This document shows positions 4,148 through 14,844 of a stretch of 35,488 nucleotides of DNA, one piece after another (the stretch's first letter is position 1; every line of letters starts with the position of its first letter). Both the position numbers and the translations under genes were made by a program. Location: the NCBI GenBank assembly GCA_904374485.1, contig CAJFFX010000034.1, forward strand, positions 1 through 35,488, in the 5' to 3' direction. The notes below the pieces were generated by a model. The model did no database searches. It worked only from the letters and a program-made list of their open reading frames with translations, and was not told where the DNA came from. The stretch is from Candidatus Pseudoscillospira falkowii (GTDB lineage Bacteria > Bacillota > Clostridia > Oscillospirales > Oscillospiraceae).

Positions 4148-4996
4148 ATGTTCTGTAAGAAATGCGGGGCAGAACTGCCCAGTGACGCCGTATTCTGCGA
4201 AAAATGCGGCGCTCCCGTCTCCGCTCCCGCACCGGCGGACGCGCCCCCTGCCGCAGCGCCGGTGAACGAGCCGGTCCAGAACGCCGCGTTCCCGGGCGGC
4301 ACAGAGACGCCCGCGGCCGGTCCGGTCCCCTTCGACATCCCCCAGGGAACGCCCGCGGCCGCTCCCACTTCCTCCGACATCCCGCAGGGAACGTCCCCGG
4401 CCAGCCCGGTCTCCTCCAATATCCCGCAGGGAACGCCCTATGCCCCCGCGGCGCCCGCCGCGCCGAAGAAGAGCAAAAAGGGCCTGATCGTCGGCATCGT
4501 CGCCGTGGTGGTGATCCTTTTGATCATCCTCCTGGCCGTTTTCGGTCTCGGCGGCGGCAAAAACAACGATGGCGGCAATGACGGCGGCGGCGCTGCGACC
4601 GCCGGCGACGACAGCGGCGCCAACATCAACGACGACAACGACGGCAGCGGTTTCGGCGGCTTTGGCGGCGGTTCGGACCCGATCATCGGCGAATGGGAGC
4701 TGTTCGCCCTGATCGACAACAACAATACCGACGACATCACCGCCGTCCCCAGCGGCAACGGCTCCCTGATTTGCGAGAGCGACTATTCCTGCACCCTGAC
4801 CATCACCACCGATTCCTATTACGGCGACTGGGAGCAGAACCCCGAGCTGACCGACCGTCTCGACGACGCCACGGGCTACACCATCGACTTTGACGATCTG
4901 CCCGACGGCTCCGTCTCCCTGACGGAAATCAGCGGCGAGGATACGGTCCTGCTGCTGATCCCCGGCATCGATTACGGCATGGCGTTCCAGAAATAA
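4148..4996 (+). CDS. Zinc-ribbon membrane protein with repeat linker and outer domain shared with the next lipoprotein
   Basis: 282 residues. ATG at 4148 is chosen over an in-frame TTG at 4142 because AAGGAAAGGAAGG lies 8 nt before it. Parts: zinc ribbon (residues 3-21, CKKCGAE...CEKCG); Pro/Ala linker (25-105) with three copies of a 14-residue unit beginning DIPQGT at residues 63, 77 and 91; TM at about 112-134; a Gly/Asn/Asp-rich spacer (135-176); and an outer domain (177-282) starting DPIIGEWELFAL and ending GIDYGMAFQK. That last domain is repeated, without gaps and at roughly two-thirds identity by eye, in the following lipoprotein. Its G-x-W start and beta-strand pattern recall lipocalin-like or copper-resistance-type barrels, but I do not assign it. 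Confidence 0.82.
   Translation: MFCKKCGAELPSDAVFCEKCGAPVSAPAPADAPPAAAPVNEPVQNAAFPGGTETPAAGPVPFDIPQGTPAAAPTSSDIPQGTSPASPVSSNIPQGTPYAPAAPAAPKKSKKGLIVGIVAVVVILLIILLAVFGLGGGKNNDGGNDGGGAATAGDDSGANINDDNDGSGFGGFGGGSDPIIGEWELFALIDNNNTDDITAVPSGNGSLICESDYSCTLTITTDSYYGDWEQNPELTDRLDDATGYTIDFDDLPDGSVSLTEISGEDTVLLLIPGIDYGMAFQK
4334..4459 (+). repeat. In-frame 42-bp tandem repeat (3 units) in the linker
   Basis: Three units of 42 bp, starting at 4334, 4376 and 4418, each encoding 14 residues that begin D/N-IPQGT. The third unit diverges at its end. Such repeats usually change copy number by slippage and would alter the linker length between zinc ribbon and TM segment. Confidence 0.8.
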
Positions 4997-5055
4997 GAAC
5001 AGCCGGGATCCGAAACGATCCTGAATAATTATTTTGAGAAAGTGAGTGTAATGAA

Positions 5056-5454
5056 ATGAAAAAATTGACTGCGATCCTTCTTGCGGCGCTCCTCGTCTTG
5101 TCCCTGACGGCCTGCGGCAGTGGCGGCGGAAAAGACCCCATCATCGGCGAATGGGACCTGTTCGCCCTGACAGACCTGAACGACACCAGCAGCAGCACCG
5201 CCGTGCCCAGCGGCAGCGGCTCCATCACCTTCAACGACGACGGCTCCTTCACCCTGGTCATCGACACGGATTCCTATTCCGGCACCTGGGAGCAGGACGC
5301 CGACCTGACCGAAAATCTGGACGACGCCACCGGCTACGCCCTCGACTTTGACAATCTGCCCAGCGGCAATGCCTCCCTCACCGAAATCAGCGGCGAAGAC
5401 ACGGTCCTCGTCATCGTCAGCGGCATCGACTACGGCATGTCCTTCCAGAAATAA
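5056..5454 (+). CDS. Lipoprotein duplicate of the preceding protein's outer domain
   Basis: 132 residues. A lipoprotein signal peptide (residues 1-20) ends in the lipobox LTAC, with C20 as the lipidated cysteine. After a short GSGGGK spacer, residues 27-132 align end to end with residues 177-282 of the upstream zinc-ribbon protein: same length, no gaps, both beginning DPIIGEW and ending with the same GIDYGM and FQK motifs. So one domain is present twice in tandem genes, once on a TM anchor linked to a cytosolic zinc ribbon and once as a free lipoprotein. Duplication is the simplest explanation. The domain's ligand or partner is unknown; competition or dimerisation between the two forms is a testable idea only. 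Confidence 0.85.
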   Translation: MKKLTAILLAALLVLSLTACGSGGGKDPIIGEWDLFALTDLNDTSSSTAVPSGSGSITFNDDGSFTLVIDTDSYSGTWEQDADLTENLDDATGYALDFDNLPSGNASLTEISGEDTVLVIVSGIDYGMSFQK

Positions 5455-5495
5455 GGACGTTTCCGGCAATACATATCCGAAACGCACAGAACCCC

Positions 5496-5526
5496 AGCTC
5501 CCTCGGCGCAGCCGCGCCGGGGGAGT
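5496..5526 (+). other. Strong hairpin between lipoprotein genes
   Basis: Inverted repeat with 14-bp arms (AGCTCCCTCGGCGC paired with GCGCCGGGGGAGTT, one G-T pair) and an AGCC loop. No T run follows, so it is more likely an mRNA-stabilising or processing hairpin, or a weak terminator, than a full intrinsic terminator. Confidence 0.5.
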
Positions 5527-5607
5527 TCCCACAGCACCGCGGCTTTCTGCCGAAACGGCGCGCATTCGCATCAAATGCATCAAATCTGATCGATTGGAGG
5601 AATCCTG

Positions 5608-6639
5608 ATGAAAAAAGCAATCGTACTGCTTCTCACCGGCGCCATGGCCCTGTCTCTGGCCGCCTGCGGCGGACAGGCGCGCACAATCCCCGGCACATAT
5701 AAAAGCGCCGGCTTCATCCAAACAGCGGACTATGTGCTGAACGAGGACGACACCTATATCCACGGCGAAGAAAAGGGCACCTATGCCGCCGGCGACGGCG
5801 ACGTCCTGTCCCTGACGCCCCAGGGTTCTGAAGAAGCCATCACCCTGTCCCCCAGCGGCGCCTATTATTACGACAGCAGATACGCCATGACGGAGGACAC
5901 TGAATTCGGCGCGGCCCCGGCTTTTGAAAACGGCGTGTCCGGCCAGACGTTCAGCATCGACGTCAGCGGCGTCACGGCGACGCTGGCGCTGAGCGAGGAT
6001 GGCACGTTCCAGTTTACCGTCAGCAGCCCCGCACCGGAATACACCATCATGGACAACACCGTGACTTACGAAGGCACCTATGCCCTGGACAAGGAAGTGC
6101 TGACCCTGACCTGGAACGACATGGCTTTCCCCTGCCTGTTTGTGGACGACGCCCTGTATGCAGTGGTCTATGAGCAGGAAAATGACGAAAACAGCGACGC
6201 CATCGCCCAGCGCCAGGCCGCCGTCAGCGAGGCGGAGCAGGCCGCCAAGGACGCCGCCTGGTGGACCGCCGCAGAGGACGGGCGCGCCGCCGAGATCATG
6301 GCCGCCGCCCAAGGCACCTGGACCTATACGGAGTCCGGCGCCTACGGCCTGACCTATCAGTACCAGTTCGTCAACGACTATGTTTACGTCACCGTTTCGA
6401 TGCTGGGCTATCCCGCCCAGAATCAGGGCGAATTCACCGTCTGCAACGACGTTCTCCTGGTCAAGTACGACGGCGGCACCCAGGGCTCCGTGGCCATCCC
6501 CTATGTCTACGAGGACGACGGGACGCTGAAGCTCTATCCCATCAACGCGCTGAACGACGATGCCGTGAAGGACCCCGGCATGGAATTTGTGACCGCGGAA
6601 CAGGCCGCCAGCGGCCCTTGGGCCGCAAAGGCGGGCTGA
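5608..6639 (+). CDS. Lipoprotein with repeated beta-barrel-like domains
   Basis: 343 residues; TGGAGG lies 9 nt before the ATG. The signal peptide ends in LAAC with C20 lipidated. The mature part looks like three related beta-rich units that each start with a G-T-(Y/W) strand: about 28-80 (GTYKSAGF...), about 108-185 (FSIDVSGVTATLALSEDGTF..., then EGTYALDKEVLTLTWN), and about 236-320 (GTWTYTESGAYGLTYQYQF...). A helical Glu/Ala-rich segment (about 190-230) separates the last unit. This pattern resembles lipocalin-like lipoproteins of Firmicutes. No catalytic motif. It closes the zinc-ribbon/lipoprotein cluster and ends at a shared terminator. Outer-face binding protein is inference. Confidence 0.78.
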   Translation: MKKAIVLLLTGAMALSLAACGGQARTIPGTYKSAGFIQTADYVLNEDDTYIHGEEKGTYAAGDGDVLSLTPQGSEEAITLSPSGAYYYDSRYAMTEDTEFGAAPAFENGVSGQTFSIDVSGVTATLALSEDGTFQFTVSSPAPEYTIMDNTVTYEGTYALDKEVLTLTWNDMAFPCLFVDDALYAVVYEQENDENSDAIAQRQAAVSEAEQAAKDAAWWTAAEDGRAAEIMAAAQGTWTYTESGAYGLTYQYQFVNDYVYVTVSMLGYPAQNQGEFTVCNDVLLVKYDGGTQGSVAIPYVYEDDGTLKLYPINALNDDAVKDPGMEFVTAEQAASGPWAAKAG

Positions 6640-8735: not shown

Positions 8736-8772
8736 AAATCCCTCCGGTTTGGCCAGAGCGGATTTCAATATC

Positions 8773-9153
8773 TCAGGATGTTTCCCGGCAGGCGCTGCAC
8801 ACACCGCGGAACAGCAGTTCGCTGCGCCGGACGCGCACGCCGTAGCGCGTTTCCAGGTCGGACCGCAGGTCGTCCTGGGGCACGTCCACATCCAGCACGG
8901 CGCCGCACTGCTCGCAGATGAAGTGGGCATGGGGCTCCGTGCAGGCGTCCAGCCGGTCCGCGCCGCGGACCGTGGCCACGCAGACCACCTCGCCGCTTTC
9001 GCGGAAGAGCGCCAGGTTGCGGTACACCGTGCCCAGGCTCAGGTCCGGGTGCTCCGGCTTGAGCTGGGCATAGATCCATTCCGCCGAAGGGTGGACGCGG
9101 CTCTGCCGGATGCAGTTCAGGATCGCATCGCGTTTTCTGCTGTGTCTGCGCAC
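8773..9153 (-). CDS. perR: PerR-like Fur-family peroxide regulator
   Basis: 126 residues, slightly short for the family. An N-terminal winged helix contains HPSAEWIYAQ and LSLGTVYRNLALF, the Fur-family DNA-recognition region. The C-terminal dimer domain carries structural-zinc cysteines C80/C83 and C119/C122 and metal-site candidates H35, D69, H75 and H77, matching the regulatory Fe/Mn site of PerR. PerR represses oxidative-stress genes until peroxide oxidises its metal-bound histidines. Genes on its downstream side (rubrerythrin) fit that role. Its own promoter carries an inverted repeat over the start site, pointing to autoregulation. Fur or Zur cannot be excluded from sequence alone, but context favours PerR. 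Confidence 0.88.
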   Translation of the reverse strand: MRRHSRKRDAILNCIRQSRVHPSAEWIYAQLKPEHPDLSLGTVYRNLALFRESGEVVCVATVRGADRLDACTEPHAHFICEQCGAVLDVDVPQDDLRSDLETRYGVRVRRSELLFRGVCSACRETS

Positions 9154-9180
9154 GGTCCTCCTCCCTTCGTTCCTCTAATC

Positions 9181-9227
9181 AATAACGATTACTGTTATTA
9201 TTATATCGAATCACGTTCGTTTGTCAA
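9181..9227 (-). promoter_or_regulatory. perR promoter with Fur/PerR-type operator
   Basis: On the minus strand TTGACA (9227-9222), 16-bp spacer, TATAAT (9205-9200). Just downstream, at the expected start site, lies the inverted repeat AATAAC-N7-GTTATT (9181-9199), of the size and AT character of Fur-family boxes. Confidence 0.75.
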
Positions 9228-9287
9228 TCCCCTTTTTGAAAAAATTTTTGTTTGTCGGCCATTGGCGGCGCCGTTTTCCCGAAACGC

Positions 9288-9326
9288 AAAAAGCTGCCCG
9301 GAGCATCCGCTCCGGGCAGCCTTTTT
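9288..9326 (-). terminator. Terminator of the EF-G-like gene
   Basis: Perfect 12-bp stem (GCTGCCCGGAGC / ATCC / GCTCCGGGCAGC) with A and T runs on both sides; on the minus strand it ends in five T residues. Confidence 0.9.
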
Positions 9327-9333
9327 GATCGGT

Positions 9334-11409
9334 TTATTCCTCGTCGCCCTGCATCTGCTTTGCTTCGGCGATGGCTTTTTCCTGCACGGCGGGAGGCGCG
9401 TCCTCATAGCGCAGGAAGGCATAGGTGAACATGCCTCTGCCCTGGGTCATGGAGCGCAGGTCGATGGCATAGGTGCCCATTTCGCCCATGGGGACCTCCG
9501 CCACGATCTCCTGCTCGCCGGCCTCCACGGGGTTCATGCCCACCACGCGGCCGCGGCGCTTGTTCAGATCGCCCATCACGTCGCCGGTGTAGGAATCGGG
9601 GACGATGACGTGCAGCTCGCCGATGGGCTCCAGCAGCACGGGGTTGGCCTGGGCCAGGCCCGCCTTGTAGGCCAGGGACGCCGCCGTCTTGAAGGCCATT
9701 TCGGAGGAGTCCACAGGGTGATAGGAACCGTCCACCAGAGTGGCCTTCAGGTTGACCACGGGATAGCCGGCCAGGACGCCGTGCTGCACGCACTCGCGCA
9801 GACCCTTTTCCACGGCGGGGAAGAAGTTCTTGGGCACGCTGCCGCCGAACACGTTCTCTTCAAAGACCAGGTCCTCGCTGTCGCAGGGCTCGAACTCGAT
9901 CCAGACGTGGCCGTACTGGCCGTGGCCGCCGGACTGCTTCTTGTGCTTGCCCTCGACCTTGACCTTTTTGCGGATCTTCTCGCGGTAGGGCACGCGGGCA
10001 GGGCTCAGGGTGACGTCCACGCCGTAGCGGTCCTTCAGCTTGGCGCACAGGACGGACAGCTGGATGTCGCCGGTGCCGGTGAGGACCATCTGGCGGGTCT
10101 CGGCGTTGTTGACGCAGTGGAAGGTCATATCCTCTTCGGCCAGGCGCACCAGGCCGTTGGCCACCTTGTCCTCCTGGCCCTTGGTCTTGGGGGCGATGGC
10201 CATGGTGTAGTTGGCCACGGGGAAGGGGATGGCCGTCAGGTTCACGGGGTGCTTGGGATCGCAGAGGCTGTCGTTGGTGCGGGTGTCGGTCATCTTGGAA
10301 ACGGCGCCGATGTCGCCGCAGCAGACCTCCTGCACCTCGGTGGCCTTCTTGCCGCACATGGTGTACAGGTGGCCCAGCTTGGCGATGTTGCCGGTGCGGG
10401 CGTTGATGACGGACATATCCGGCGTCAGCTTGCCGGAGATCACCTTGAAATAGGAATACTTGCCGTACTGGTCAGAGGTGGTCTTGAACACGAAGGCGTA
10501 GGGCGCGCCGTCCTCGGAAATGTCGATCTCCACCTTGTTGCCCTGCATGTCGGTGCCCTTGCGGTTGGGGATCTCCACGGGGTTGGGGAACAGCTTGATG
10601 ATGCAGTCCAGCAGCGTCAGGGTGCCCAGGCCCGTGAAGGCGGAGCCGCAGACCACGGGGCACAGCGTCAGATCCCGGACGCCGTTGTGCAGGCCCTGGA
10701 TGACCTCTTCCTGGGTGAAGGGCTCGCCGGAGAAGTATTTGTCCATGAATTCCTCGCTGGTCTCGGCCACGGACTCACACAGCTGCTCATAGAGCTCCTC
10801 GACAACGTCCTTCTTGTCCTCGGGGATGGGCACTTCCTTGCGGCGCTTGCCCTCGAGCTGATAGGCACGGCGGTAAACGATGTCGAGCAGGGTCTCGATA
10901 TGTTTTTCCTCGTCCCACAGAGGCATCATTACCGGGCACACGCTGCGTCCGAACTTTTCGCGCAGGGTCTGCCATGCGCCGTTGAAGTCGCCGTTTTCCT
11001 CGTCGGTCTTGGAGATGTAGATGGCGCGGGGCATGTTGCGCTCCTGGAGGTATTTCCAGGCCTTTTCGGTGCCCACGGAGAGGCCGCCCTTGGCACTGCC
11101 GACGATGATGCCGGCGTCGGCCACGCGCAGACCTTCCATCACTTCGCCGGAGAAATCGAAGTAGCCCGGCGTATCCAGGACGTTGATCTTATATCCCTTA
11201 AACTGGACCGGCGCCACCGACAAAGAAATCGAGATCTGTCTTTTGATCTCCTCGGGGTCGCTGTCGCAGACTGTGTTGCCGTCGGTCACCTTGCCCAGGC
11301 GGTCGATGCTGCCGGTCAGATACAGCATGCTTTCCACCAGGGAGGTCTTTCCGGTGCCGCTGTGGCCCAGCAGGCAGACATTGCGGATATCTTTTGCAGT
11401 GTAGCTCAT
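9334..11409 (-). CDS. EF-G-like translational GTPase (paralogue subgroup)
   Basis: 691 residues with AAGGAGA upstream. The five-domain EF-G layout is present: GTP-binding domain with P-loop GHSGTGKT (15-22), domain II, and the C-terminal domains III-V (for example GGHGQYGHVWIEFEP and the NKRRGRVVGMN region near the C-terminus). It differs from canonical EF-G at two key sites: the switch II motif reads DTPGYFDF (79-86), so the catalytic histidine of DTPGHVDF is Tyr83, and the base-recognition NKxD motif reads SKTD (133-136). These changes fit the second EF-G subgroup (EF-G2/EF-G-like) found in many Firmicutes. Monocistronic with its own promoter and terminator. A housekeeping fusA is expected elsewhere; precise role is unknown. 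Confidence 0.9.
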   Translation of the reverse strand: MSYTAKDIRNVCLLGHSGTGKTSLVESMLYLTGSIDRLGKVTDGNTVCDSDPEEIKRQISISLSVAPVQFKGYKINVLDTPGYFDFSGEVMEGLRVADAGIIVGSAKGGLSVGTEKAWKYLQERNMPRAIYISKTDEENGDFNGAWQTLREKFGRSVCPVMMPLWDEEKHIETLLDIVYRRAYQLEGKRRKEVPIPEDKKDVVEELYEQLCESVAETSEEFMDKYFSGEPFTQEEVIQGLHNGVRDLTLCPVVCGSAFTGLGTLTLLDCIIKLFPNPVEIPNRKGTDMQGNKVEIDISEDGAPYAFVFKTTSDQYGKYSYFKVISGKLTPDMSVINARTGNIAKLGHLYTMCGKKATEVQEVCCGDIGAVSKMTDTRTNDSLCDPKHPVNLTAIPFPVANYTMAIAPKTKGQEDKVANGLVRLAEEDMTFHCVNNAETRQMVLTGTGDIQLSVLCAKLKDRYGVDVTLSPARVPYREKIRKKVKVEGKHKKQSGGHGQYGHVWIEFEPCDSEDLVFEENVFGGSVPKNFFPAVEKGLRECVQHGVLAGYPVVNLKATLVDGSYHPVDSSEMAFKTAASLAYKAGLAQANPVLLEPIGELHVIVPDSYTGDVMGDLNKRRGRVVGMNPVEAGEQEIVAEVPMGEMGTYAIDLRSMTQGRGMFTYAFLRYEDAPPAVQEKAIAEAKQMQGDEE

Positions 11410-11457
11410 TGTGCTCTCTCCTTATACTGTGAACTTTGGTCTGCACCAATTGTGTCA

Positions 11458-11486
11458 ATTATATAATATTTCGCCCGGACATACAA
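11458..11486 (-). promoter_or_regulatory. Promoter of the EF-G-like gene
   Basis: Minus strand: TTGTAT (11486-11481), 17-bp spacer, TATAAT (11463-11458). A short palindrome AATTG-TGT-CAATT (11448-11460) overlaps the -10 end and the start site. Confidence 0.6.
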
Positions 11487-11665: not shown

Positions 11666-11682
11666 TTTTCGTGATTTTGCTG

Positions 11683-13959
11683 TCAATACTGGCTCACCCA
11701 GCCGTTGATCATGGCCGCAGGCACCGACCAGAGCAGCTGGAAGATCAGCAGCGCCGCCGGATTGAGCACGTTGTAGCCGCTGACGAACGTCAGGTAAAAG
11801 GCCAGAAGCGTGCCGCAGATGCTGCCGATCAGCGCCCAGGCGCAGTTTTTGCGCACGGCGCCGTGCATCCGCTTGCCGCCGATGACCACTTCCGCATAGG
11901 GCATCAAGCCGTTGCGGAACAGCAGCGCGCCGGGGCGGCCGCTGCTTTCGTACTCCTCCTCCGACAGGGCCAGCCGGTCGGAAAGCTCCGGGTACAGGCA
12001 GCGCTTTTTCGTGTTGATCCTGAACTTGCGTTTGATCAGCGCCGGGGTGATATTGAAGTCCCGCACGGCGAACACCGGGCGGATGCCGTTGTGCAAAATC
12101 GCCTGCAGGGCCGCGTCCACATTGTCCGAGGCCATGTATTTCACGGCGAACACGGCCACCAACTCCTTGTCCACCGCCAGGAAGACGCCGGTCTTCAGCT
12201 TGATCTCCCGGGGCAGGCGCACGCCCATCTGGGCCATGAAATCCGCCCGGCCCACCAGGACGCTCTCACCGCGGATCGTGCCGGCGACGCCGCCCTCCTG
12301 GTAAAAGCTGAAGTCCTCCACCGGATAGGTGTGGCCGCCCTGGCTGCGGCACAGATCGTCGAACACCTGGCGCAGCCCGCAGCCGGAGGCCGTCATCAAA
12401 CTGCTGGCATAGGACACGGCCTGGATGGCGTCGTGGGCGTAGACCTTCATGCCGTTCATGAACACGGTGCCCGGCGGGAACAGGTCGCTGTCCGTCAGGA
12501 CCATGCTGCCTTTGCGGCTCATCATGGCCGCGCCGCTGTAGGACGCCACGGCGCAGCCGTCCCGCTGCAGCCGGCGCGCCAGCTTGCCCAGGGGGGTGCC
12601 GAAGGCCGCCGTGAAGGCAAAGGACGAGGCCGCCCCCAAGATGGCCGACCAGTACCAGAAGAAATTGTCGAGGTCGAAGCGGTTGACCGCCGTCAGCACG
12701 GCAAAGACCGTGCAGGCCGTCAGGATCACCGGCAGCAGCAGGTAATACCAGGCGCGCTGCTCGCTCTCCTGCTCCGTCATGCGGATGAAGCCCTCGGCGG
12801 AGCTGGACTGCTTGCGAAAGCCCCCTGCCACAGCCGTGACGATATAGGGCTCCTGATCGTAGGTCGCCATGTGGCAGGAATCCCGCAGACCGCGCAGGCG
12901 AAGCATTTCGCCCCGCATCGTGAGATACAGCGCCGCCGCGGCCACCGTACACAGGGGCAGCTGCGCGCCGCGGCCACCGTCCAGCCAGAAAGACGCGCCG
13001 TCCGCCGCCGCGGCCAGGGCGAACAGTGACACCAGCAGTTCCGGCTGACAGCGCCGGTGCAGCAGCTCCGTCACGGCCCGGGCAAACACTGGCAAGCACA
13101 AAAGGCACTGGATCAGCAGAAGCCCCAGATGTAACGCCATGCCGGCGTCGGGCTCCAGATAGCCCGCCGCCGCGCCGCTGTATTCCACGCCCGCCAGGGC
13201 GCAGGCCAGCAGCGCCAGCAGCAGCGCCGGGCGAGAACGCCGGCGCAGGCGCTTGTAGCGCCGGTGGTAATCCCCGGTGGCCTCGCCGCTGTCGCGCTCG
13301 GGCAGTTCTTCTTCCGCTTCCTCCTCTTCCCCGCGGGCGTCCTCCACATAGGAGGGCTCTTCCGGCTCCTCCTCCGGCGGGGTGTACAGGGGCTCGGTGT
13401 CTTCAAAGCGGCGGCGCTTGCGGGAAAACAGGCCCCGGCGCACCGCGGGCTGGGCCACCTGCCGCCGGGCCTCTTCTTCCTCCATCACGGCGTCCACCAC
13501 CTGGGCCATCACGTCCTCCAGGGGCACGCCGCCGCGCGGCTCCTGCCGCGGCACCGGCGGCTCGTAAAGGGCCTGGGGCTCCGGGTCCCAGGTCTCCGGC
13601 TCGGATAGGGATGCTTTGCGCGCCGGGGCGTCTTCCGCCGGGCGCGGATCTTCTTTCGTTTCTTCCTGCCGGGGCCGCGTTTCCGCCGGCGGCTCCGGGG
13701 CCGGCGGCGCTTCCTTCCGCACCGCGGCGCGGGGGCTCCGCTCCTTCCGGGGCCGGACCGGCTTGGGCACATACCCTTCGTTGACCCACACTCCGTCCTC
13801 CGCTGGCGCAGGCGGCGCTTCATGGCTCCCGTATTCGGCCAGGATCTCCTCCAGATCGAGTTCCTCCATGACCCGGGAAAGGTCCACGCCCTCCAGGAGC
13901 TTTTTCGTATCGAAGGCGTCGTCCTTCTCTATGAACTTGTCAAACTCCTTCTGATCCAT
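11683..13959 (-). CDS. Catalytically degenerate P-type ATPase-like membrane protein
   Basis: 758 residues. Residues 1-240 are a cytosolic acidic/Pro/Arg-rich region with low complexity; TMs lie at about 244-266, 277-297, 307-325, 332-347, 405-424, 431-453, 706-726 and 731-750. From residue 430 on it follows the plan of a P1-type ATPase: TM, FGTPLGKLARRL in place of the CPC/TPL region, then TDSDLFPPGT at 489-498 where the phosphorylation motif DKTGT belongs (D490 kept, the rest lost), a nucleotide-domain-like stretch GGVAGTIRGESVLVG (556-570), VRDFN (632-636) where TGDN is expected, no GDGxND, and the closing pattern N-(x)n-NPAALLIFQLLWSVPAAMING of the last two TMs. It follows rlmB by 36 bp in one operon. 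Inference: a non-pumping scaffold or sensor. Confidence 0.7.
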   Translation of the reverse strand: MDQKEFDKFIEKDDAFDTKKLLEGVDLSRVMEELDLEEILAEYGSHEAPPAPAEDGVWVNEGYVPKPVRPRKERSPRAAVRKEAPPAPEPPAETRPRQEETKEDPRPAEDAPARKASLSEPETWDPEPQALYEPPVPRQEPRGGVPLEDVMAQVVDAVMEEEEARRQVAQPAVRRGLFSRKRRRFEDTEPLYTPPEEEPEEPSYVEDARGEEEEAEEELPERDSGEATGDYHRRYKRLRRRSRPALLLALLACALAGVEYSGAAAGYLEPDAGMALHLGLLLIQCLLCLPVFARAVTELLHRRCQPELLVSLFALAAAADGASFWLDGGRGAQLPLCTVAAAALYLTMRGEMLRLRGLRDSCHMATYDQEPYIVTAVAGGFRKQSSSAEGFIRMTEQESEQRAWYYLLLPVILTACTVFAVLTAVNRFDLDNFFWYWSAILGAASSFAFTAAFGTPLGKLARRLQRDGCAVASYSGAAMMSRKGSMVLTDSDLFPPGTVFMNGMKVYAHDAIQAVSYASSLMTASGCGLRQVFDDLCRSQGGHTYPVEDFSFYQEGGVAGTIRGESVLVGRADFMAQMGVRLPREIKLKTGVFLAVDKELVAVFAVKYMASDNVDAALQAILHNGIRPVFAVRDFNITPALIKRKFRINTKKRCLYPELSDRLALSEEEYESSGRPGALLFRNGLMPYAEVVIGGKRMHGAVRKNCAWALIGSICGTLLAFYLTFVSGYNVLNPAALLIFQLLWSVPAAMINGWVSQY

Positions 13960-13995: not shown

Positions 13996-14844
13996 TCACT
14001 GCATCCGCTGGCGCACAGCTTCGTACAGCAGAATCGCCGCGGCCGCCGATGCGTTCAGGGAAGAAATGTGCCCCTTCATGGGGATGCTGACCAGAAAGTC
14101 GCACTTCTCCGCCGTCAGGCGGCTCATGCCGTCGCCTTCACTGCCGATGACGATGGCCGCCGGCCCCTTCAGGTCCGCGTCGTACAGCGCCGTCGTGCCG
14201 TCCGCCGCCGTGCCGAACACCCAGAGGCCCTGTTTCTTCAGATCCTCCAGCAAGGCCGGGATATTGGCCACCCGGGCCACCGGCAGATAGGACACGGCCC
14301 CGGCGCTGGTCTTGGCCACCACCGCTGTCAGCCCCGCGCTGCGGCGCTTGGGAATGATGACGCCGTGGGCCCCGGCGCACTCCGCCGTGCGGATCACCGC
14401 CCCCAGGTTGTGGGGGTCGGACAACTCGTCGCAGATCACAATCAGGGGTTTTTCGCCCTTATCCGCGGCGACGGCCAGAATGTCCTCCACCGCGGCGTAA
14501 GCCTTGGCCGCCGCCACGGCGATGACGCCCTGGTGGGCCTGGGTGACGCTCATGGCGTCCAGCTTGCGGTGGTCGGCTTCCACCACCACAACGCCCTGCT
14601 CCCTGGCCTGGGCTGCGATGGCGCGGAGCGTGCGGTCCGTGGCGCCCCGGACAACGTAGAGCTTGTCGATAGCCGTTCCGGCGCGCAGCGCCTCTGCAAC
14701 GGCGTTGCGCCCTTCGATCAGCGTTTCTCCGCCGTGCTCCTCCCGCTGCTCTGCCCGTTCCCGGGCATGCTCCGCCCGGTCCTCCCGGCGGCCGCTCCGG
14801 TCCCGCGCGGCGCGGAATGTCTTTTGCCGTTTTTCCTCTTTCAT
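13996..14844 (-). CDS. rlmB: 23S rRNA 2'-O-ribose methyltransferase, RlmB/TrmH type
   Basis: 282 residues: about 38 basic/charged N-terminal residues, then a SpoU substrate-binding domain starting at about residue 36 (LIEGRNAVAEALRAG) and a C-terminal SPOUT knot domain with the three SpoU motifs: DELSDPHNLGAVIRTAECAG, IVIGSEGDGM and the final IPMKGHISSLNASAAAAILL. It 2'-O-methylates a guanosine in 23S rRNA (G2251 in E. coli numbering) using S-adenosylmethionine. The ribosome site GGGAGAG is modest. First gene of the operon with the P-type-ATPase-like gene. Family is firm; that it is RlmB and not a close TrmH-type paralogue is likely but not proven. Confidence 0.9.
   Translation of the reverse strand: MKEEKRQKTFRAARDRSGRREDRAEHARERAEQREEHGGETLIEGRNAVAEALRAGTAIDKLYVVRGATDRTLRAIAAQAREQGVVVVEADHRKLDAMSVTQAHQGVIAVAAAKAYAAVEDILAVAADKGEKPLIVICDELSDPHNLGAVIRTAECAGAHGVIIPKRRSAGLTAVVAKTSAGAVSYLPVARVANIPALLEDLKKQGLWVFGTAADGTTALYDADLKGPAAIVIGSEGDGMSRLTAEKCDFLVSIPMKGHISSLNASAAAAILLYEAVRQRMQ

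Follow-up and report, generated by a model that had tools for sequence, protein, structure and literature searches.

Pseudokinases and pseudoproteases are well known, and to our knowledge no clade-wide pseudoenzyme of the P-type ATPases has been described. The closest described relatives of the protein reported here, hereafter X, are the P1B-1 copper pumps of the CopA type (4bbj, 3a1d), with which it shares eight membrane helices, a kinked MB helix, the P and N folds and the order of these elements. In contrast with CopA, X lacks the motifs DKTGT, GDGxND, TGES, SEHP and CPC, its A domain has shrunk to a hairpin, and where CopA has metal-binding domains it carries a long disordered N-terminus with a short conserved motif. 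KdpB and other P-type ATPases resemble X in general fold, but the match is weaker (best Foldseek E 2.6e-10) and no Kdp context surrounds the gene. No Pfam family describes X, and the open-access literature yielded no paper on P-type ATPase pseudoenzymes or on rlmB of Oscillospiraceae, in line with a preliminary description of this DNA, which knew of no described family. A broader search on inactive P-type ATPases, with sources accessible only in part, returned papers on eukaryotic pumps and none about such a family. Since most subscription journals were not covered, this absence is weak evidence of novelty.

X is encoded in the window, that is, the whole stretch of 35,488 nucleotides analysed from Candidatus Pseudoscillospira falkowii, as a single open frame with an ATG start, 36 nt downstream of rlmB on the same strand (Table 1). 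In this region, a simple scan for sigma-70 sites gave no promoter-like candidate. Because of the same-strand 36-nt spacing, the terminator-like hairpin after X and the lack of a promoter-like site, co-transcription of the two genes is likely, as judged from the layout and without transcript data. Two long open frames are found antisense on the forward strand, at 8749-11466 opposite the EF-G gene and at 11671-13029 opposite X; both look spurious, as products of GC-rich coding DNA.

Table 1. Features of the rlmB-X unit and loci elsewhere that carry the same motif (positions refer to the window unless a locus is named; residues are those of X).
Feature	Position or locus	Strand	Basis
rlmB, 23S rRNA (G2251-2'-O)-methyltransferase, first gene of the two-gene unit	13996..14844	-	TIGR00186 E 5e-72, above cut-off
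X, pseudo-P1B-ATPase, 758 aa	11683..13959	-	ORF, homologues, profile alignment, AF2 model, Foldseek
Conserved N-terminal docking-like motif ELDLEEILAEYGS, residues ~31-49 (conserved core 36-43)	13813..13869	-	profile A4, E 8.8e-6 in this genome
Disordered acidic/Pro/Arg linker, residues 47-222, variable	13294..13821	-	AF2 pLDDT mostly below 50, alignment
Four membrane helices equivalent to MA, MB (kinked), M1 and M2 of P1B pumps, residues 224-367	12859..13290	-	A1 profile, AF2 helices
Vestigial A-domain position, short beta hairpin without TGE, residues 368-399	12763..12858	-	profile, AF2
M3-M4 helices, CPC metal site replaced, residues 400-466	12562..12762	-	profile, alignment, AF2
Former phosphorylation motif TDSDLFPPG, residues 489-497	12469..12495	-	alignment of 69
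N domain fold without SEHP, residues 508-608	12136..12438	-	Foldseek HMA6, alignment
TGD-equivalent V-R-D-F-N-I-T-P, residues 632-639	12043..12066	-	D634 in 65/69
GDGxND-equivalent R-N-G-L-M-P, residues 682-687	11899..11916	-	GDGxND in 0/69
Two C-terminal membrane helices M5 and M6, residues 685-754	11698..11907	-	AF2
Terminator-like 18-bp hairpin and T run, 16 nt 3' of the X stop codon	11627..11666	-	sequence scan
Y, second pseudo-P-type ATPase, 629 aa	L239:2535-4424 (G022:C9)	-	motif profile match
Motif-tailed LspA, G005	L241:3345-4220	-	
Motif-tailed LspA, other genomes	G006 L315; G017 L289/L326; G025 L312; G027 L311; G030 L317; G037 L224; G042 L374; G044 L373; G053 L323; G056 L372		

Searches of Pfam and of PDB sequences with the single X protein gave nothing useful, and its match to PRK10671 (CopA) remained far below the cut-off (E 3.9e-5). 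Two blocks of CopA could be aligned with a profile built from 69 X members (A1): MA-MB-M1-M2 at E 2e-20 (model positions 176-329) and M3-M4-P-N-P at E 5e-35; genuine CopA pumps were matched by the family profile at E~1e-34. The AF2 model of X had a mean pLDDT of 82.6, its core lying mostly at 90-98 in ten-residue blocks. When this model was compared with the PDB by Foldseek, LpCopA ranked first (4bbj, E 2.6e-17); ATP7B and further P1B pumps came next, and KdpB ranked below them. The P and N head, modelled alone with a pLDDT of 91.5, matched the heads of CopB and CopA with E values from 5e-12 to 5e-10, and the N domain was aligned with that of HMA6 at a target TM of 0.82. The TM-scores of the whole head were modest, about 0.4-0.6, an expected outcome where the hinge between two domains differs. 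When placed in a tree together with P1B-1 and P1B-2 pumps, X formed a single clade with a support of 100/100, although its exact sister cannot be named, since several X end branches are long. The descent of X from P1B-type ATPases is thereby confirmed, as far as profile alignments and predicted models can confirm it. The preliminary description, which had suggested such a comparison of a model with P1B pumps, had also recognised the landmarks of a P1-type fold in order. This holds for the eight helices and for the P and N folds but not for the A domain: the M2-M3 loop that takes its place has only about 30-40 residues, against ~117 in CopA, so that what had been called an A/P/N fold is really a P/N fold.

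The catalytic motifs were examined across the 69 homologues. At the former phosphorylation site the family reads TDxDLFPxG, with D490 conserved in 63, D492 in 60 and F494 in 65 members; DKTGT at this site and SEHP were found in none of the 69, nor was GDGxND (Table 1), the place of which reads R[E/D/N]GLxP in many members. TGD is replaced by [T/V]RD in most of them, the His position of SEHP is mostly S, C or G, and the CPx/CPC metal site in M4 is replaced in the alignment rows. Stray strings do occur among these proteins (DKTG in two rows, TGE[SPAT] in one and CPx-like strings in three); both DKTG strings lie elsewhere in the protein and not at the site, and the positions of the others were not checked singly. 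In 80 further copies from named genomes, no DKTG[TS] was found in the last 320 residues and no GDGxND anywhere. The replacements first noticed in the window alone (TDSDLFPPGT for DKTGT, VRDFN for TGDN), together with RNGLMP at the place of GDGxND, are thus real and family-wide and do not reflect chance. Nor does an alternative alignment bring the catalytic residues back: even a one-residue shift restores neither the Lys and Thr of DKTGT nor GDGxND, TGES or SEHP.

In the gap-free profile alignment, T489 occupies the position of the phospho-Asp, and D490 and D492 those of the Lys and the Gly of DKTGT. Of the 69 members, 38 have T at residue 489 and 7 have S, while R and D occur in 6 members each. 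The rest of DKTGT is absent from the six divergent members with Asp at this position (L053, VDAKDLFP; L056; L057, LDDSDIF; L058; L061; L064, IDDSDIF), and this Asp is possibly a trace of stepwise loss. It could also be proposed that in TDxD the DxD motif of HAD phosphatases has evolved anew, which would make X a changed enzyme and not a dead one. DxD with its nearly invariant first Asp indeed resembles HAD motif I, and many members have an acidic residue (E/D683) where motif IV has its Asp; however, the gap-free alignment and the predicted end of the strand favour T489 over D490 as the residue at the nucleophile position, and the motif IV position varies (E, D, N and others), with N683 in the X of the window, which leaves a new phosphatase activity very improbable.

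Through a whole-genome protein search, X was found in 89 of 99 related genomes, in one copy each; a few genomes gave extra weak matches, which resemble other P-type ATPases. Among 292 genomes sampled across the class, every genome of the same order matched X at E<=3e-78 and the best match outside the order had an E value of 1.5e-33; at the 16 best outside-order loci, the encoded proteins are genuine pumps in which DKTGT, TGD and GDGxND are all present. Since a small number of fairly complete genomes from other families in the order (e.g. G078, G088) gave no match, X is near-universal, and not universal, in Oscillospirales. The name of the order is a reading of the taxon names in the set of 80 loci from named genomes, which was collected with six closer sequences and includes the complete genomes AP025582 and AP018533 as well as Flavonifractor and Pseudoflavonifractor isolates. 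Conservation next to rlmB, which had been put forward as a check on the locus, was found in both samples: rlmB lies directly upstream of X on the same strand in 52 of the 60 loci having longer flanks, mostly with gaps from -4 to about 100 nt, and directly upstream in 66 of the 80 loci from named genomes, where at least some of those without it stop at a contig edge. Outside the order, a position of X beside rlmB is unsupported, the readable downstream genes being NYN-domain, sigH-like, helicase and other genes, and not X. In one genome X seems to be split (L062:4164-6560, G081:C38) into a motif-bearing N-terminal part (4164-5255) and a core of 430 aa (5268-6560), and fission was not distinguished from an assembly error.

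The selection acting on X was estimated as dN/dS (NG86) against two same-genus copies. In the two pairs, the P and N head gave values of 0.034 and 0.113, compared with 0.139 and 0.214 for rlmB; the linker had values of 0.16 and 0.46, and the four membrane helices that come first had 0.24 and 0.54. The values are approximate because dS is high in one pair (1.33 for the whole gene), and in both pairs the head is the most constrained part of X and is under stronger purifying selection than rlmB. The constraint therefore sits in the cytosolic head and not in the transport path; for a residual transporter, we infer, the reverse would be expected. The loss of every catalytic motif might suggest a decaying pseudogene, but X is open in nearly every homologue examined, across the order, and its dN/dS is far below 1; on these grounds the pseudogene reading was rejected, and we leave it practically no weight. 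Common descent, loss of catalytic residues and retained selection together meet the criteria for a P1B-derived pseudoenzyme that keeps its eight helices and its P and N folds, as the preliminary description had supposed for the membrane and nucleotide-domain scaffold. We regard this status as nearly certain, the loss of activity itself being inferred.

The strength of the constraint on the head, the retention of the N-domain fold and the gathering of conserved D490, D492, D634 and R633/R682 at the former catalytic motifs would also suit a ligand sensor, in which the old active-site cleft binds a nucleotide, a divalent metal or a second messenger and signals through the tether. Such sensing is not excluded, but it seems unlikely to us, as the ATP contacts of P1B N domains (the E/H of SEHP) are absent in 69 of 69 members and there is no evidence that the conserved Asp and Arg residues form one pocket.

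The N-terminal ~220 residues of X are predicted to be disordered and vary greatly among members in length and sequence. The 240-residue acidic, Pro- and Arg-rich N-terminus claimed earlier is accordingly disordered (pLDDT mostly below 50), but it is not acidic disorder only, because a conserved motif occupies residues 36-43. This motif, FSLEDILAEF-like and represented in X by the peptide ELDLEEILAEYG, has the consensus [FYD][ST][LI][ED][EDS]IL[AR]E[FYV] and lies near the start of most full-length members in the alignment. A profile of 22 positions (A4) returned 70 matches in the 99 genomes at the cut-off of E<=0.003. Every match that was inspected or placed belongs to X (the majority), to a C-terminal tail of LspA or to a second pseudo-ATPase, Y, and the idea of a motif general to many membrane proteins was accordingly rejected. 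Some of these matches are X N-termini cut off by contig ends (e.g. G024, G038, G028), and for a few X-like ones at contig ends (e.g. G041, G086) the assignment rests on place alone. Outside the order, the motif had no match below E 1e-3 in a search of 118 genomes of the class. A weak version, RSLEDILQEM, stands at the N-terminus of a VanW-like protein (L240:3098-5005, minus strand, G094:C1; E 0.31), and a DUF1700-like protein gave a weak, isolated match.

LspA (signal peptidase II) is an enzyme unrelated to X. What the two have in common is a disordered tail with this short motif at its tip; in LspA, however, the motif is C-terminal and restricted to a subset of Oscillospiraceae. In 11 genomes (Table 1) LspA has a long, disordered-looking C-terminal extension with the motif at its extreme C-terminus, the protein of G006 ending in EEFSLEDILAEFR followed by the stop codon; a weaker version was seen on the LspA tail of a twelfth genome, G010 (L313). 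A profile search found no motif on LspA without a long tail, that of the window included, and most sampled LspA do not carry it. The C-terminus of LspA is cytosolic, and P1B topology puts the N-terminus in the cytosol, where that of X should also lie; the motif would therefore be presented on the same side of the membrane by both proteins.

Y was found in one of the 99 genomes, that of a member of the Oscillospiraceae. It begins with MIEKKGPGEIESYDLDDILREYGGG, has a short A region, reads NKTGT for DKTGT, keeps TGDN intact and has no GDGxND, and it scores as a P1B ATPase below the cut-off (TIGR01525, E 2.8e-56). It shares with X the state of a degraded P1B pump, the shortness of the A region and the N-terminal motif, but it retains NKTGT and TGDN and falls, on a long end branch, inside the clade of the P1B-2 pump ZntA (99/100), apart from X. 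Judged from its sequence, Y looks like a loss independent of X that bears the same motif. A fructose-bisphosphate aldolase-like gene adjoins Y (L211).

Since the catalytic motifs are lost, yet conservation is strong and a docking-like motif is also present on LspA tails, X is probably a scaffold and not a pump. We lean, without great assurance, towards a dead pump turned membrane scaffold with a docking partner common to LspA; the role, the docking and the partner are inferred, no partner having been identified and no interaction shown. According to this proposal, X would have become established early in Oscillospirales, behind rlmB in the two-gene rlmB-X unit, and would no longer pump, the elements for phosphorylation, Mg2+/hydrolysis, dephosphorylation (A domain), ATP binding (SEHP) and metal binding (CPC) being gone. 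The eight-helix anchor would carry the ordered cytosolic head and a long disordered tether with the short, predicted helical motif near its tip. The motif may dock on a partner that, in at least eleven genera, would also be bound by the LspA tail, and the head, as the most constrained part, may offer a second binding face, so that the partner, plus LspA in some species, would be gathered at one membrane site. LspA cannot be the general partner story, because most sampled LspA, including that of the window, has no tail motif. The motif region reaches a pLDDT of only ~65 in the AF2 model, and for this reason no confident docking of the motif on the X head can be given. The link with rlmB may point to a role near ribosomes or in co-translational membrane work, for which there are no supporting data here.

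A different function would be the regulation of genuine P1B pumps of the same cell, on which X might, for instance, have a dominant-negative or a stabilising effect. Regulation of active paralogs is common among pseudoenzymes, and this genome does have genuine P1B genes; against this, X is linked to rlmB and not to a metal operon, its motif is common to LspA and not to pumps, and it forms a deep separate clade (100/100), for which reasons we consider pump regulation quite improbable.

The membrane scaffold could be part of a wider arrangement, in which Oscillospirales use a private short docking code of FSLEDILAEF-like sequences on disordered tails, read by one conserved receptor, with X as the near-universal bearer and with LspA and the independently killed Y recruited to the site of X by gaining the motif. 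This is a tentative extension, which we think somewhat doubtful. A whole order of gut bacteria has retained the scaffold of an ion pump, the cytosolic head of which is more constrained than an rRNA methyltransferase, and the non-pumping role of a P-type head thereby becomes a testable question. The motif common to X and LspA provides a concrete handle, as one peptide could fish out the partner in a culturable species. Within the linker of X, a second helix, LEDVMAQVVDAVMEEEE, is predicted at residues ~147-168 (about 13456-13521, minus strand) with a pLDDT of ~83, and similar stretches occur in close relatives.
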